From the NCBI RefSeq assembly GCF_029637485.1, contig NZ_CP069128.1, positions 2,760,001-2,824,000 of the forward strand: a stretch of DNA of 64,000 bases, read 5' to 3'. The notes under the pieces are model-generated. The model saw only the letters and a list, made by a program, of their open reading frames with translations, searched no databases and was not told the DNA's origin. Within the stretch, counting starts at the first letter, position 1; each line of letters starts with the position of its first letter. The translations under genes were made by a program, and so were the position numbers. This DNA comes from Sphingomonas sp. LHG3406-1 (GTDB taxonomy: Bacteria > Pseudomonadota > Alphaproteobacteria > Sphingomonadales > Sphingomonadaceae). This document shows, one piece after another, positions 5,623 to 10,253 of this stretch.

Positions 5623-7361
5623 CAGGTCTTGGCCGCCAGCCCGGCCCGGGCTGCGATCTTCTCCGCGTCATACTTGGAATAGAGATACTTCTGCTGCGCG
5701 ATGCCGAGGATATTGGACACCACCCAGTAAAGCTGCAGGCCGGCCGCGAACGGCGCCATGGCGAACATCAGCACCCACGGCATGATCGAGAAGATCTGCT
5801 TCTGGATATCGTCCATGGGCGCCGGGTTGAGCCGGAACTGCAGCCACATGGTCACGCCGAGCAGGATCGGCAGGACGCCGAGGTGCAGGAGGCCGGGCGG
5901 ATCGAAGTTCAGCAGGCCGAACAGGTTGATCGGGGTCAGCGGATCGGGCGCCGACAGGTCCTTGATCCACAGCTCCCACGGCTGGTGGCGCATTTCGACG
6001 GTCACTGTCAGCACCTTATAGAGCGCGTAGAAGACCGGGATCTGGAGGAAGATCGGAAGGCAGCCCGCGGCCGGATTGATCTTCTCGCGCTTGTACAGCT
6101 CGAGCAGCTCCGTCTGCATCTTGGTCCGGTCGTCCTTGTGACGCTCCTGGATCTCCTTCATCTTCGGCTGCATCGCCCGCATCGCCGCCATCGACCGGAA
6201 CTGGCGGTCGAAGATCGGATACATCAGCAGGCGGACGATGAAGGTCAGCGCGATGATCGCCCAGCCGAAGTTGCCGATGGTGTTGAACAGCCAGATCAGC
6301 AGCGAGAAGATCGGCCGCATGAACCATTCGAAATAGCCCCAGTCGATCGAGTCCGAGATGACCGGCAGGGTGCCGTCGGCCTCGTACGCGTCGAGCCACT
6401 TCTTTTCCTTGGCGCCGGCGAACAGGCGGGTGGTGTTCTCGCTTGCCTGACCGGGCGCGAGGATCTTCGGCTCGAGGGCGTAATCGGCCTGGTAGCTGGT
6501 GCCCTGCCCGCGGCGGAAGCTGGCGCCGAGCGGCGCGTCGCCGGCCGGCGCGAGTGCGGTCAGCCAATATTTGTCGGTGAAGCCGAGCCAGCCATTGTTG
6601 CCGGTGAAGCGCTTGCCGCCCTGCTCCTCGTCGAGCGTATCGTAGTTGACGCCATATTCGGCCGCCCCGTCGAACACGCCCATTGGGCCGACATGGTGGG
6701 TCCAGCCGTCGAAATTGGCATCGGGTCCGCTGTTGGCGCGGCTGAGCAGGCCGAACGGACGGACCGCGACCGGGCCGCCACCCTGGTTCACGACCCGCTG
6801 CTTGACGGTGAACAGATAGCCGTCGTCGACCGCGACGATCAGTTCGAAGCGCTGGCCGGTGGGATTGGTCCAGCTGAGGGTGATCGGCTTGCCCGGGACG
6901 AGGGTCGGCGCGCTGGTGGTCCAGACGCTGTTGGCATCGGGCACGGCGACGCCCTGGCCGGTCCAGCCGAAGCGGGCAAAATAGGCGCCCGGCGCGCCGG
7001 CCGGACTGAGCAGCCGGGCCGGCTGGGCATTGTTGCCGACACGGTCGGTGTGACGGACCATCCGCAGGTCGTCGAAGGTCGCACCCTTGAGGCTGATCGA
7101 GCCGTCGAGGCTGGGCGTCGTGACCTTGACCCGCGGAACGCCGCGAAGTGCTTGGGCGCGGGTCATGGTCGGTGCGGCAGAGGTGGGTGCTGCGGTGGCG
7201 GCCGCCGGCGCGGTGCCGGGCGCGGCCGGCATGCCGCTCTTCTGCGCGGTCGCCGCCGGCTTGGGCGTCGGCATGAACCGCTCCGACAGGAACCCCCAGC
7301 CGAGCAGCACCAGGGCGCTCAGCGCAATGGCGAGGATCATGTTGCGCGTGTCGTTGTTCAC
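5622..7361 (-). CDS. yidC: membrane protein insertase YidC (Oxa1 family)
   Basis: 579 residues, the usual size for proteobacterial YidC with the large periplasmic domain. An N-terminal signal anchor (about residues 8-26) is followed by a Pro/Ala-rich linker, the beta-sandwich periplasmic domain (about 60-340), and the conserved C-terminal five-helix core including [19 protein letters not shown] and [16 protein letters not shown]. It inserts and folds inner-membrane proteins with or without SecYEG. The start is a GTG at 7361 overlapping the yidD stop (GTGA). Confidence 0.96.
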
Positions 7362-7606
7362 TTCAGTTCATGTCCTCGTGACTGACCCGTCGGTTCCGGT
7401 ACCGGATCGTAGCCCTGGCCCCCCCAGGGATGGCAGCGGCCGATCCGCTTGCATGCGAGCCAGCTTCCGCGAAGCGCCCCATAGCGGCGCCAGGCCGTGA
7501 TTGCATAGGCCGAGCAGCTCGGCTGAAAGCGGCAGGAAGGCGGCAGGATGGCGCTCGGCCCGATCTGCCAGCCGCGCGCAAGCAGGATGAGCAGGCGGGC
7601 GATCAT
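7358..7606 (-). CDS. yidD: membrane protein insertion efficiency factor YidD
   Basis: 82 residues. The motif LPPSCRFQPSCSAYAITAW, with its two characteristic Cys and the invariant SCSxYA core, identifies YidD, a small amphipathic membrane-associated protein that supports YidC-dependent insertion. Later GRCHPWGGQGYDPVP matches the conserved C-terminus. It overlaps rnpA by 4 bp upstream and yidC by 4 bp downstream, so the three are translated in a coupled chain. Confidence 0.95.
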   Translation of the reverse strand: MIARLLILLARGWQIGPSAILPPSCRFQPSCSAYAITAWRRYGALRGSWLACKRIGRCHPWGGQGYDPVPEPTGQSRGHELK

Positions 7607-8067
7607 GTCGCCACCTTTCGCAGCGCCTTGGCGAGCTCGGCGCGAAGCTTGGCGAAGTCGCGCTCGATCCCGCTCTGGCGGCCGATGATCACATGGTCGG
7701 CGCCGGCGACGCCTTCGGCGGGCAGCAGCTCGGCAGCAAGCGCGCGCAGGCGCCGCTTCATCCGGTTGCGGACAACGGCGTTGCCGACCTTCTTGCTGAC
7801 GGTATAGCCGACGCGCTTTGTGGCCGAGCCGTCGCCGCGATGGCGGACCAGCAGGACGAAACCGGGCATGGCTGCGCGCCGGCCGCTATTGGCCGCGAGA
7901 AAATCCGCGCGCTTGCTTAAGGTGACTAGGCGCTCAGCTTCTTGCGGCCGCGCGCCCGGCGGGCCGCCAGCACCTTGCGTCCGCCCACCGTCGCCGAGCG
8001 CGAACGGAAGCCGTGACGCCGCTTGCGGACGAGGTTGCTGGGCTGGAAAGTGCGCTTCATCGCTCAT
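7603..8067 (-). CDS. rnpA: ribonuclease P protein component, N-terminally extended over rpmH
   Basis: 154 residues if started at the ATG at 8067. The protein subunit of RNase P helps the catalytic RNA bind and process tRNA precursors. The conserved core is seen in the last ~105 residues: [36 protein letters not shown] (the RNR motif) and a C-terminal helix. No ATG, GTG or TTG occurs in frame between the core N-terminus (about 7915) and 8067; the first codons of the core read CTA GTC ACC TTA. The next internal ATG (MPGFVL, about 7869) would remove the conserved LSKRADF helix. The only canonical start that preserves the core therefore lies upstream of rpmH, placing rpmH wholly inside rnpA in another frame. 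The ~50-residue extension is Pro/Arg/Ala-rich. The family call is certain, the start is inferred. Confidence 0.8.
7926..8060 (-). CDS. rpmH: 50S ribosomal protein L34 (nested inside rnpA frame)
   Basis: 44 residues, exactly the usual L34 length, starting [18 protein letters not shown] and ending GRKKLSA. This is the smallest large-subunit protein, extremely basic. It is read in a different frame from rnpA and is completely covered by the extended rnpA frame; the two ATG codons (8067 and 8060) are 4 nt apart. The AAGG at 8070-8073 is 9 nt from this ATG, an optimal distance, so L34 should be the better-translated product. Confidence 0.97.
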
Positions 8068-8069
8068 TG

Positions 8070-8074
8070 CCTTA
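8070..8074 (-). promoter_or_regulatory. Shine-Dalgarno shared by rpmH and extended rnpA
   Basis: The minus-strand motif TAAGG sits 2 nt before the rnpA ATG at 8067 and 9 nt before the rpmH ATG at 8060. The distances favour rpmH, so this one site could set the ratio of abundant L34 to scarce RnpA. This is inferred from spacing only. Confidence 0.5.
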
Positions 8075-8153
8075 GGTTTGGGAACAAAAAGGGCCGCCCC
8101 GACGAGGGCAGCCGCATTGCTTGGCGCGCCGTTACTGAAGGCGGCGTCCGGAG

Positions 8154-8582
8154 TCAATGGCGGGGCGCCGGCTCGGCAGGTGCGACTTCGGCAGGGGTGG
8201 GGTCGACCGGCGACAGTTCGAGCCCGGCCTTGGGGAGGGGATCGTCGATCCGCGGGACCTCCGACAGCGGCGGCGCCTCGGCCCGCTCTCGCTCCTTGCG
8301 CAAGGCCTCGCGGCGCTTGGCACTGCCGCGTCGGAGGCCCCAGTCGAACCAGGTCCCGGCGCGGGGCTGCCAGCGCTTGAAATGGACGTAGCGGCGCTTT
8401 GCCCACAGGCTGGTGCGGAGGACCAGCGTCAGCCCGGCGGCGGCCAGCAGCAGCCCGCCGGGGCCGGGCAGGGGACTGGCGAGCGGGGCTGCGACGAACA
8501 GCAAGATCATGCCGAGGACGAACAGCATGCTCTGGACCATGCGCGTGTTGCGGATCGCGGCGAGGCGCTCGAGCAGGGTCAT
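8154..8582 (-). CDS. small membrane protein of unknown function
   Basis: 142 residues from the ATG at 8582. An ATG-initiated extension to 8660 is possible but is Pro-rich and precedes the likely start. Two hydrophobic stretches (about residues 17-36 and 40-57) form a hairpin in the membrane, followed by a basic segment (RTSLWAKRRYVHFKRWQPRAG) and a Pro/Glu/Ala-rich tail. It lies upstream of rpmH on the same strand with a 93-bp gap. Proteins of this layout are seen next to rpmH in sphingomonads, but I do not recognise a named family. Confidence 0.7.
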   Translation of the reverse strand: MTLLERLAAIRNTRMVQSMLFVLGMILLFVAAPLASPLPGPGGLLLAAAGLTLVLRTSLWAKRRYVHFKRWQPRAGTWFDWGLRRGSAKRREALRKERERAEAPPLSEVPRIDDPLPKAGLELSPVDPTPAEVAPAEPAPRH

Positions 8583-8744
8583 TGCAAGGTGATGTAGGGA
8601 GATAGGACGGCAGGGAAAAGGGGGCGGGGCCGGCCCCTTGTCCTCCAGTGGGTTGCTCAACTCCCGCTACCAGCGTAGCCTCCTGTTCGCCGAGCTAGGG
8701 GGCTGTTTGCTTCGTTCATTGCCGGTGCCCGGAGGTCGCGCCTG

Positions 8745-10253
8745 ATGGTCGCGATCGTGTCCACCGTCGCCTATCTCGGTCTCGAGGCCCGCGCCGTCGA
8801 GGTGCAGGTCCAGCTGTCGACCGGCATCCCGCGCTTCGTCATCGTCGGTCTGCCCGACAAGGCGGTGGCCGAAAGTCGCGAGCGGGTGCGGGCCGCGCTG
8901 ACCGCCATTGGCCTCGCGCTCCCGCCCAAGGTCATCACCGTCAACCTGTCACCGGCCGACCTGCCCAAGGAAGGCAGCCATTTCGACCTGCCGATCGCAC
9001 TCGGCCTGCTCGCCGCGGTCGGCGCGGTCGATGCCGATATGCTGTCCCACTATGTCGCCGTCGGCGAGCTCTGTCTCGACGGACGCATCACCGCCTCGCC
9101 CGGCGTGCTGCTCGCCGCGCTGCATGCGGCTGGCGAGGAGAAGGGGCTGATCTGCCCGGCGGCGCAAGGAGCCGAAGCGGCCTGGGCTGGGGAGGTGGAG
9201 GTGCTCGCCGCCCCCGACCTCCTCGCCCTGCTCGCTCACCTGCGGGGGACGACCCTGCTGCCGCCGCCGCCGCCCGGCGTGGCGGAGCCGGCGGTCGGCG
9301 GTCCCGACCTCGTTCAGGTCAAGGGACAGGAAGTCGCCAAGCGCGCGCTGGAGATCGCCGCCGCGGGCGGGCACAACCTGCTGATGAGCGGGCCGCCGGG
9401 CGCCGGCAAGTCGCTGCTCGCTTCCTGCCTTCCCGGGATCCTCCCGCCATTGTCGCCGGCCGAGGCGCTCGAAGTGTCGATGGTCGCCTCCGTCGCGGGC
9501 GAGATGGTCGGTGGGCAGATGAAGCGCCGCCGGCCGTTCCGCGCGCCGCATCACAGCGCCTCCATGCCAGCCCTCGTCGGCGGCGGCCTCAAGGTCCGGC
9601 CGGGCGAGATCAGCCTTGCCCATCTCGGAGTCCTCTTCCTCGACGAGCTGCCCGAATTCCAGCGTGCCGTGCTCGACAGCCTGCGCCAGCCGCTCGAGAC
9701 CGGAACGGTCAGCGTCGCCCGCGCCAACGGGCACCTGACCTTTCCCGCCCGCGTGCAGCTGATCGCCGCGATGAACCCCTGCCGCTGCGGCCATCTCGGC
9801 GATGCTTCACTCGCCTGTTCTCGCGCCCCGCGCTGCGCCGGCGACTATCAGGCGCGCGTGTCCGGTCCCTTGCTCGACCGCATCGACCTCCATGTCGAGG
9901 TGGCGGGGGTCAGCGCCGCCGACCTCTCGCTGCCGCCGCCCGCCGAAGGGACCGCCGCCGTGGCGGAGCGGGTGGCGCGGGCGAGGGGGGTACAGAGCGC
10001 CCGTTACGGCCCGGCCGGCCCGCGCACCAATGCCGAGGTCGACGGTGAGCTGCTCGATGCCGTTGCCACGCCCGACGAGCCCGGCCGCCGTCTCCTCGCC
10101 GATGCGGCCGCCGCCATGCGCCTCAGCGCCCGCGGTTATCACCGTGTGCTCCGTGTCGCCCGCACCATCGCCGACCTTGCCGGGATTGAGCAGGTCGGAC
10201 GCATCCATATTGCGGAGGCGCTCAGCTATCGCCGGGTCGCTCCGCGTAACTAG
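8745..10253 (+). CDS. comM: YifB family Mg-chelatase-like AAA+ ATPase (ComM)
   Basis: 502 residues; GGAGG at 8731-8735 supports the ATG at 8745. The N-terminal ChlI-type domain (VSTVAYLGLEARAVEVQVQL) is followed by an AAA+ core: Walker A GPPGAGKS (about residue 219), FRAPHHSAS, the Walker B region LFLDELPEF, and the NPCRCG motif with a following Cys-containing loop. A C-terminal helical Mg-chelatase domain closes the protein. ComM homologues are hexameric helicases that promote branch migration of donor DNA in natural transformation. The window also carries a comEC gene at 60.1 kb, but they are far apart. Confidence 0.93.
   Translation: MVAIVSTVAYLGLEARAVEVQVQLSTGIPRFVIVGLPDKAVAESRERVRAALTAIGLALPPKVITVNLSPADLPKEGSHFDLPIALGLLAAVGAVDADMLSHYVAVGELCLDGRITASPGVLLAALHAAGEEKGLICPAAQGAEAAWAGEVEVLAAPDLLALLAHLRGTTLLPPPPPGVAEPAVGGPDLVQVKGQEVAKRALEIAAAGGHNLLMSGPPGAGKSLLASCLPGILPPLSPAEALEVSMVASVAGEMVGGQMKRRRPFRAPHHSASMPALVGGGLKVRPGEISLAHLGVLFLDELPEFQRAVLDSLRQPLETGTVSVARANGHLTFPARVQLIAAMNPCRCGHLGDASLACSRAPRCAGDYQARVSGPLLDRIDLHVEVAGVSAADLSLPPPAEGTAAVAERVARARGVQSARYGPAGPRTNAEVDGELLDAVATPDEPGRRLLADAAAAMRLSARGYHRVLRVARTIADLAGIEQVGRIHIAEALSYRRVAPRN

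Follow-up and report, generated by a model that had tools for sequence, protein, structure and literature searches.

The genes rpmH and rnpA in the window, by which we mean the whole 64,000-nucleotide stretch of Sphingomonas sp. LHG3406-1 DNA that was analyzed, most probably form a single translation-start cluster, in which one Shine–Dalgarno sequence would serve two AUG codons seven bases apart and give rise to ribosomal protein L34 and an N-terminally extended RnpA. On the comparison of related loci, we place the probability of this reading at about 0.87. Judged by the same comparison, the nested layout in the window is neither a local accident nor a sequencing error.

Organization of the locus

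The gene order on the minus strand is rpmH, rnpA, yidD, and yidC (Table 1). Both L34 profiles, PF00468 and TIGR01030, match the rpmH product over its full length (residues 1–44 of 44), and RnpA reaches 75.7 bits against PF00825 (cut-off 22.3) and 59.9 bits against TIGR00188 (cut-off 38.35). An earlier reading of the letters alone (hereafter, the sequence-only reading) had claimed that rpmH lies out of frame inside the rnpA frame with no canonical start between 8067 and the conserved RnpA core, and that the two ATGs stand 4 nt apart behind one AAGG, 9 nt and 2 nt away. Translation and a codon scan of the window agree with the former, and the coordinates and distances of the latter are right. 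Relative to rpmH, RnpA is read in the −1 frame, which is open across the whole of that gene; between the rnpA ATG (8067–8065) and the rpmH ATG (8060–8058) lie the four bases AGCG, which gives an offset of 7.

No ATG, GTG, or TTG occurs in frame between 8067 and the RnpA core of the window, and the interval from the rpmH stop to the core is also without ATT, ATC, ATA, and CTG. The codons that span the rpmH stop, from the end of the extension into the core, are CTA GTC ACC TTA AGC AAG CGC, and the earliest canonical start codon within the core is the ATG at 7869 (residue 67). In the 5′ direction, the frame continues open past 8067, with an in-frame TTG at 8157 and GTG at 8406, and is still open beyond 8406; 8067 is the nearest upstream start for RnpA in the window, and other starts exist farther off. 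The putative −35 box contains this TTG, and the start point of the putative promoter is downstream of both the TTG and the GTG.

Table 1. Features of the rpmH–rnpA locus (positions within the window)
Feature	Position	Strand	Remarks
Putative promoter, TTGACT-N17-TAACGG	8129..8157	-	family pattern TTGAC[TC]-N15..18-TA[TAG]
Leader hairpin, terminator-like, followed by TTTTT (8090-8086)	8092..8113	-	between the putative promoter and the start codons
AAGG, Shine–Dalgarno-like, common to both genes	8070..8073	-	2 nt to the rnpA ATG, 9 nt to the rpmH ATG
Proposed rnpA start codon ATG, position −7 from rpmH	8065..8067	-	start codon there in 171/222 distinct family loci
rpmH start codon ATG	8058..8060	-	
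rnpA, extended reading frame, 154 aa	7603..8067, stop included	-	stop-free frame; PF00825 and TIGR00188 above cut-off
rpmH, ribosomal protein L34, 44 aa	7926..8060	-	PF00468, TIGR01030; wholly within rnpA, out of frame
RnpA N-terminal extension, residues 1–47	7927..8067	-	overlaps rpmH; predicted disordered
Conserved RnpA core, residues 48–152	7612..7926	-	PF00825 match; fold match to solved RNase P proteins
Internal ATG, residue 67, rejected as start	7867..7869	-	M in 125/169 nested relatives
yidD, next gene, ATG overlaps the rnpA stop	7358..7606	-	PF01809

Conservation in the genus and family

An rnpA match was obtained in 68 of 71 genomes of the genus; 67 loci were fetched without regard to the codon at −7, and 66, including the window's own, were analyzed. 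All 66 distinct loci carry a start codon at −7 (65 ATG, 1 TTG), and in 65 of them the genes are close, the relative frame is the same, and the frame is open from −7 to the core, with no other canonical start ahead of the core in 64 of the 65. The exception is L021, in which rnpA lies 265 bases behind rpmH with an insert between them and the −7 ATG is retained. The ends of this insert are, by eye, inverted repeats of about 27 bases, and an in-frame GTG stands in its end; the insert may supply a new rnpA start. In L096 (G013), from a genome that is 86% complete, the rnpA match falls into two overlapping pieces as if by a frameshift, perhaps an assembly error.

When genus, family, named, and pattern loci are pooled, 222 distinct family loci remain. 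The sequence-only reading had proposed an alignment of rnpA starts in related genomes, and this places an ATG, GTG, or TTG at −7 in 171 of them. Among these 171, rnpA follows within 100 bases of rpmH in 170 and is in the frame of the −7 codon in 169 of the 170. The frame is open from −7 to the core in all 169 nested loci, and openness played no part in choosing them. Their −7 codon is ATG in 162, TTG in 6, and GTG in 1. Of the 169, 131 (the strict nested loci) have no further canonical start from the rpmH ATG to the core, and 38 do; the −7 codon is the sole canonical start of the entire open frame in 53 of the strict loci.

Two of the 222 loci (L021 and L205) have a −7 start without a matching open frame, and 51 lack the −7 start. 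Of the latter, 41 possess their own later rnpA start and ten have neither, although one of the ten, L213, has an in-frame ATG at −10. The nine without ATG, GTG, or TTG at −7 or before the core are L112, L115, L124, L128, L131, L218, L223, L225, and L233, the last being Novosphingobium fuchskuhlense; L218 and L233 show in-frame starts farther upstream. Some sphingomonads may, to judge by these nine loci, start rnpA at a rare codon.

A more even census of the family, less biased than the fetched loci, scores the −7 codon by pattern and covers the rnpA frame for part of its positives. The rpmH pattern was recognized in 290 of 298 genomes, and a start codon stands at −7 in 97 of the 298, distributed over 33 of 96 genera; counted from the list, these are 80 ATG, 11 TTG, and 6 GTG, and about 14 would be expected by chance. 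Among distinct named loci, which were selected for similarity to the window's RnpA (best 80 of 468) and hence favor close relatives, the pair is nested in 44/44 Sphingomonas and 4/4 Sphingobium and not nested in Sphingopyxis (4), Sphingorhabdus (1), or Novosphingobium (2 with their own start, 2 with neither); of two Parasphingopyxis loci, one is nested and one is not. Sphingomonas rhizophila is a named member of the window's genus; its loci L010 and L160 are one and the same contig stretch.

Outside the genus, 189 family genomes had a match and 88, mostly better-scoring, were fetched. Removed before counting were L001 (the same place as L002), 25 duplicates, and 16 loci whose L34 was not recognized by the pattern (L077, L108, L146, L147, L153, L164, L177, L193, L210, L241, L242, L252, L264, L266, L268, and L272); among the removed loci, L108 and L146 appear to be nested, unlike L147. 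One record titled Arthrobacter sp. TPD3018 (L198, QDFQ01000001.1) carries the sphingomonad type of nested rpmH/rnpA and is probably misnamed.

Controls outside the family

Of 56 class-sample genomes that are not of the family and show the rpmH pattern, 4 have a start codon at −7, each of them TTG; equal base frequencies would predict about 2.6. None of the three analyzable loci with this TTG is nested. The 23 class control loci with close genes divide among the three relative frames as 11, 7, and 5, without a single −7 start that leads into rnpA; L258 and L259 gave no RnpA match. Among close pairs, the matching frame occurs in 65/65 genus, 69/71 fetched family, and 62/64 named loci. The order sample outside the family gave a −7 start in 0 of 83 genomes, a count that has no rpmH denominator. 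Among the 249 genomes searched in the phylum sample, L291 has the only ATG at −7 outside the family, and rnpA there is in rpmH's own frame and not nested. In the remaining sampled alphaproteobacteria, frames are mixed and rnpA has a separate start.

The start codon of RnpA

On the best reading of these alignments, RnpA would start at the ATG at 8067, be about 46 residues longer than otherwise, and share one ribosome-binding site with L34. The N-terminally extended RnpA of 154 aa proposed in the sequence-only reading is thereby supported by family comparison, through the conserved −7 start and the open matching frame. Neighboring in-frame places are rarely start codons in the 169 nested loci (0 at −4, 3 at −10, 4 at −13, and 1 at −16). 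The distance from the rpmH stop to the core takes 17 values in nested loci, from −4 to 89, and the frame nevertheless matches in 169 of 170; a start located after rpmH would not need such a match.

The bases around the −7 codon are also conserved. The Shine–Dalgarno bases are G in 93% (position −10) and 78% (position −9) of nested loci; spacing was taken from such base frequencies, and the positions from a duplex-energy script were judged imprecise and set aside. At −4 (8064 in the window), directly behind the rnpA start codon, 98% of nested loci carry an A, versus 24% of the 51 others. The resulting ATGA contains a TGA that terminates the rpmH frame immediately before rpmH itself; the A may aid initiation, or it may serve to close that frame.

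One should be cautious with the openness of the frame, which on its own is weak evidence because an open frame across rpmH occurs as well in 42/51 family loci that lack a −7 start and in 6/8 GC-rich class controls. The wobble T that would create a stop is found at 0 of 925 sites in nested loci versus 797 of 5213 (15.3%) safe sites; since it is likewise low in family loci without the −7 start (3/278) and in GC-rich class controls (2/51), its avoidance is not taken as proof of selection. When synonymous codons were re-dealt, a procedure that ignores general wobble bias, 73.5 open frames were expected among 114 representatives versus 114 seen.

Four other explanations should be weighed, three of which (a non-canonical codon after rpmH, the internal ATG, and a sequencing error) the sequence-only reading had itself raised against the long form. 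In the one that survives best, though we consider it improbable, RnpA begins by re-initiation at a non-canonical codon (for example, GTC, ATC, ATT, or TTA) at or just after the rpmH stop, and the −7 ATG plays no part. Ordinary RnpA does have its conserved first residues at the rpmH stop, ATC or ATT occupies residue 48 in 26 of the 88 strict nested loci of the commonest spacing, and in the nine loci listed above canonical starts seem to be missing at −7 and −10 and from the rpmH start onward. Yet the window and 21 others (22/88) are without even ATT, ATC, ATA, or CTG at that place, and re-initiation leaves both the start codon at −7 in 171/222 loci and the matching frame in 169/170 close loci unexplained; the conserved start and frame together disfavor it.

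Less probable still is a −1 frameshift within rpmH that would yield an L34–RnpA fusion, or an rnpA start far upstream at TTG 8157 or GTG 8406. The RnpA frame is indeed the −1 frame of rpmH and is open past 8406 in the window. An upstream start is not general, however, because the −7 codon is the only canonical start of the open frame in 53/131 strict relatives, and frameshifting would need no start codon at −7; inspection of the rpmH end, by eye only, showed no slippery site.

A start at the internal ATG is very unlikely. It is the first canonical start in the core, and M is the commonest residue at that place (125/169), but residue 67 varies: it is T in 39/169 and another residue in 5, and among the 65 genus loci it is M in 35 and T in 27. 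Residues 53–60, upstream of it, are strongly conserved, with R53, D55, A59, and N60 invariant or nearly so, and a start there would lose the first helix of the RnpA fold, predicted by AlphaFold at residues 53–61; that conserved residues and a helix precede this Met disfavors it. Loss of a start codon through sequencing error fails as an explanation and is refuted by the relatives, since the same absence is common to 131 distinct loci, several from one-contig genomes.

The N-terminal extension

The AlphaFold model, whose input alignment comprised 61 family proteins out of 162 nested proteins, has block mean pLDDT values of 44–54 for residues 1–40, 69 for residues 41–50, and at least 89 for residues 51–154. 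The predicted core fold matches PDB RNase P proteins, and its first helix (residues 53–61) lies ahead of the internal ATG.

Wobble sites of rpmH coincide with first codon positions in the RnpA frame. Diversity at the four-fold wobble sites of rpmH showed no significant constraint on the extension, being 0.457 in nested loci versus 0.435 in the rest of the family (p = 0.37 over 29 paired columns). In the RnpA core, the corresponding values are 0.516 and 0.446, so that, as a plain numerical comparison, rpmH wobble diversity relative to the core is slightly lower in nested loci. What these sequences keep is the start and the absence of stops, the latter partly given by GC-rich codon use. We therefore read the extension, most probably disordered, as a by-product that is tolerated and as the price paid for a common start site, rather than as a domain with a function.

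Promoter and leader

The promoter pattern given in Table 1 is found upstream of the pair in 203 of the 217 family loci with at least 150 nt of upstream sequence, versus a mean of 0.7 in mononucleotide shuffles. A stricter sigma-70 scan did not find the putative promoter at 8129..8157. With a conserved promoter-like pattern before the pair, rpmH and rnpA can be read from one mRNA with a short leader. The putative −35 box overlaps (8154–8157) the stop codon of an upstream ORF at 8154–8660 on the minus strand, which encodes 168 aa with no Pfam match.

The terminator-like leader hairpin was aligned over 47 of 54 hand-picked family leaders, with L113, L117, L133, L138, L142, L145, and L150, all without the −7 start, omitted. 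In this alignment, 95.7% of cells are paired, and 3 of 7 pairs show changes on both sides. For the 83-nt leader in its entirety, folding is no better than in shuffled sequences (z −0.12), and no Rfam match was found in 7000–9000. The hairpin may be an attenuator or a 5′ stabilizer.

Proposed mechanism

The mRNA would present a single Shine–Dalgarno sequence followed by two AUGs seven bases apart. Initiation at the second AUG would give L34; initiation at the first would take the ribosome through rpmH in the −1 frame and give RnpA with about 46 extra residues. A Shine–Dalgarno spacing of about 8–9 nt is good for initiation and one of 1–2 nt is poor. The first AUG, only 1–2 nt from the Shine–Dalgarno sequence versus about 8–9 nt for the rpmH AUG, would seldom be used, and with poor spacing for rnpA and good spacing for rpmH, most ribosomes should make L34 and few RnpA.

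We infer that the first AUG is used and, from this geometry, that its use is rare, giving a low RnpA:L34 ratio that would be set by spacing and would suit an abundant ribosomal protein and a scarce enzyme subunit. The built-in L34:RnpA ratio suggested in the sequence-only reading fits the Shine–Dalgarno spacing.

Evolutionary history

In family loci with close genes that lack the −7 start, the nested frame is still present in 34 of 37, as would be expected if nested ancestors had gained a new rnpA start. On a tree of RnpA and YidD, the nested state is clustered, requiring 12 changes versus 51.3 in shuffles. Support is below 80 on 92 of 192 inner branches and the outgroup branches are long; we therefore use the tree for clustering and regard it as too weak to count or date gains and losses.

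The nesting in sphingomonads likely arose independently of the arrangement in Thermus, because nothing similar is seen in the class controls (no nesting in 23 close loci) and L291 of the phylum sample is not nested. A fuller scenario, which we offer tentatively and rate somewhat short of even odds, is that a dual-start device arose in sphingomonads, separately from that of Thermus, and that its single ribosome-binding site splits initiation between two essential genes. Its spacing would be tuned for an excess of L34 and rare RnpA, a conserved promoter and terminator-like hairpin would control both genes, and lineages such as Novosphingobium and Sphingopyxis would later have un-nested the pair by gaining an rnpA start.

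Comparison with known systems

In Thermus, the nesting of rpmH in rnpA was reportedly described by Feltens et al. in 2003 (PNAS 100:5724). A 2022 paper describes the Thermus rpmH as nested in rnpA, with the start sites AUGGAUG behind one Shine–Dalgarno motif, presents it as the only bacterial case described until then, and reports that both genes were shown to be expressed (PMC9841429). The precedent to which the sequence-only reading had appealed, of a nested pair in Thermus with starts a few nucleotides apart, is confirmed by this account. A literature search, in which subscription papers were thinly covered, found no report of nested rpmH/rnpA in sphingomonads or other alphaproteobacteria.

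With a second group, distant from the first and rich in culturable species, one can test whether such sites fix protein ratios and likewise study the birth and undoing of a nested pair. The starts of rnpA are possibly misannotated in sphingomonad genomes, a point that comes from sequence comparison and not from the annotations themselves, and we recommend that peptides of the extension be sought in existing proteomes.

The ordinary rpmH–rnpA pair of other bacteria has the same neighbors, but its rnpA has its own start after rpmH. The ambiguous AUGUG/GUGUG start sites that the 2022 paper describes for Escherichia coli pqiA, tamA, and narQ (PMC9841429) are similar in that two starts compete in one initiation region and lead into overlapping frames; as presented there, they differ in that the start codons overlap in a single five-base motif and in that no pair of housekeeping genes is involved.

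The closest likeness is with Thermus as that paper portrays it. Expression of both genes is reported there, whereas the sphingomonad case is read from sequence; the sphingomonads belong to another phylum and are nested in part of the family only, and the window's rnpA AUG nearly touches the Shine–Dalgarno sequence, unlike that of Thermus. The start spacing also differs, with an offset of 7 (ATGAGCGATG) in the window versus 4 (AUGGAUG) in Thermus, but both offsets give the same rnpA frame relative to rpmH. With an L34 gene wholly within rnpA, AUGs a few bases apart, and one Shine–Dalgarno motif in each, the sphingomonad arrangement, as read from its sequence, matches that of Thermus by anatomy.
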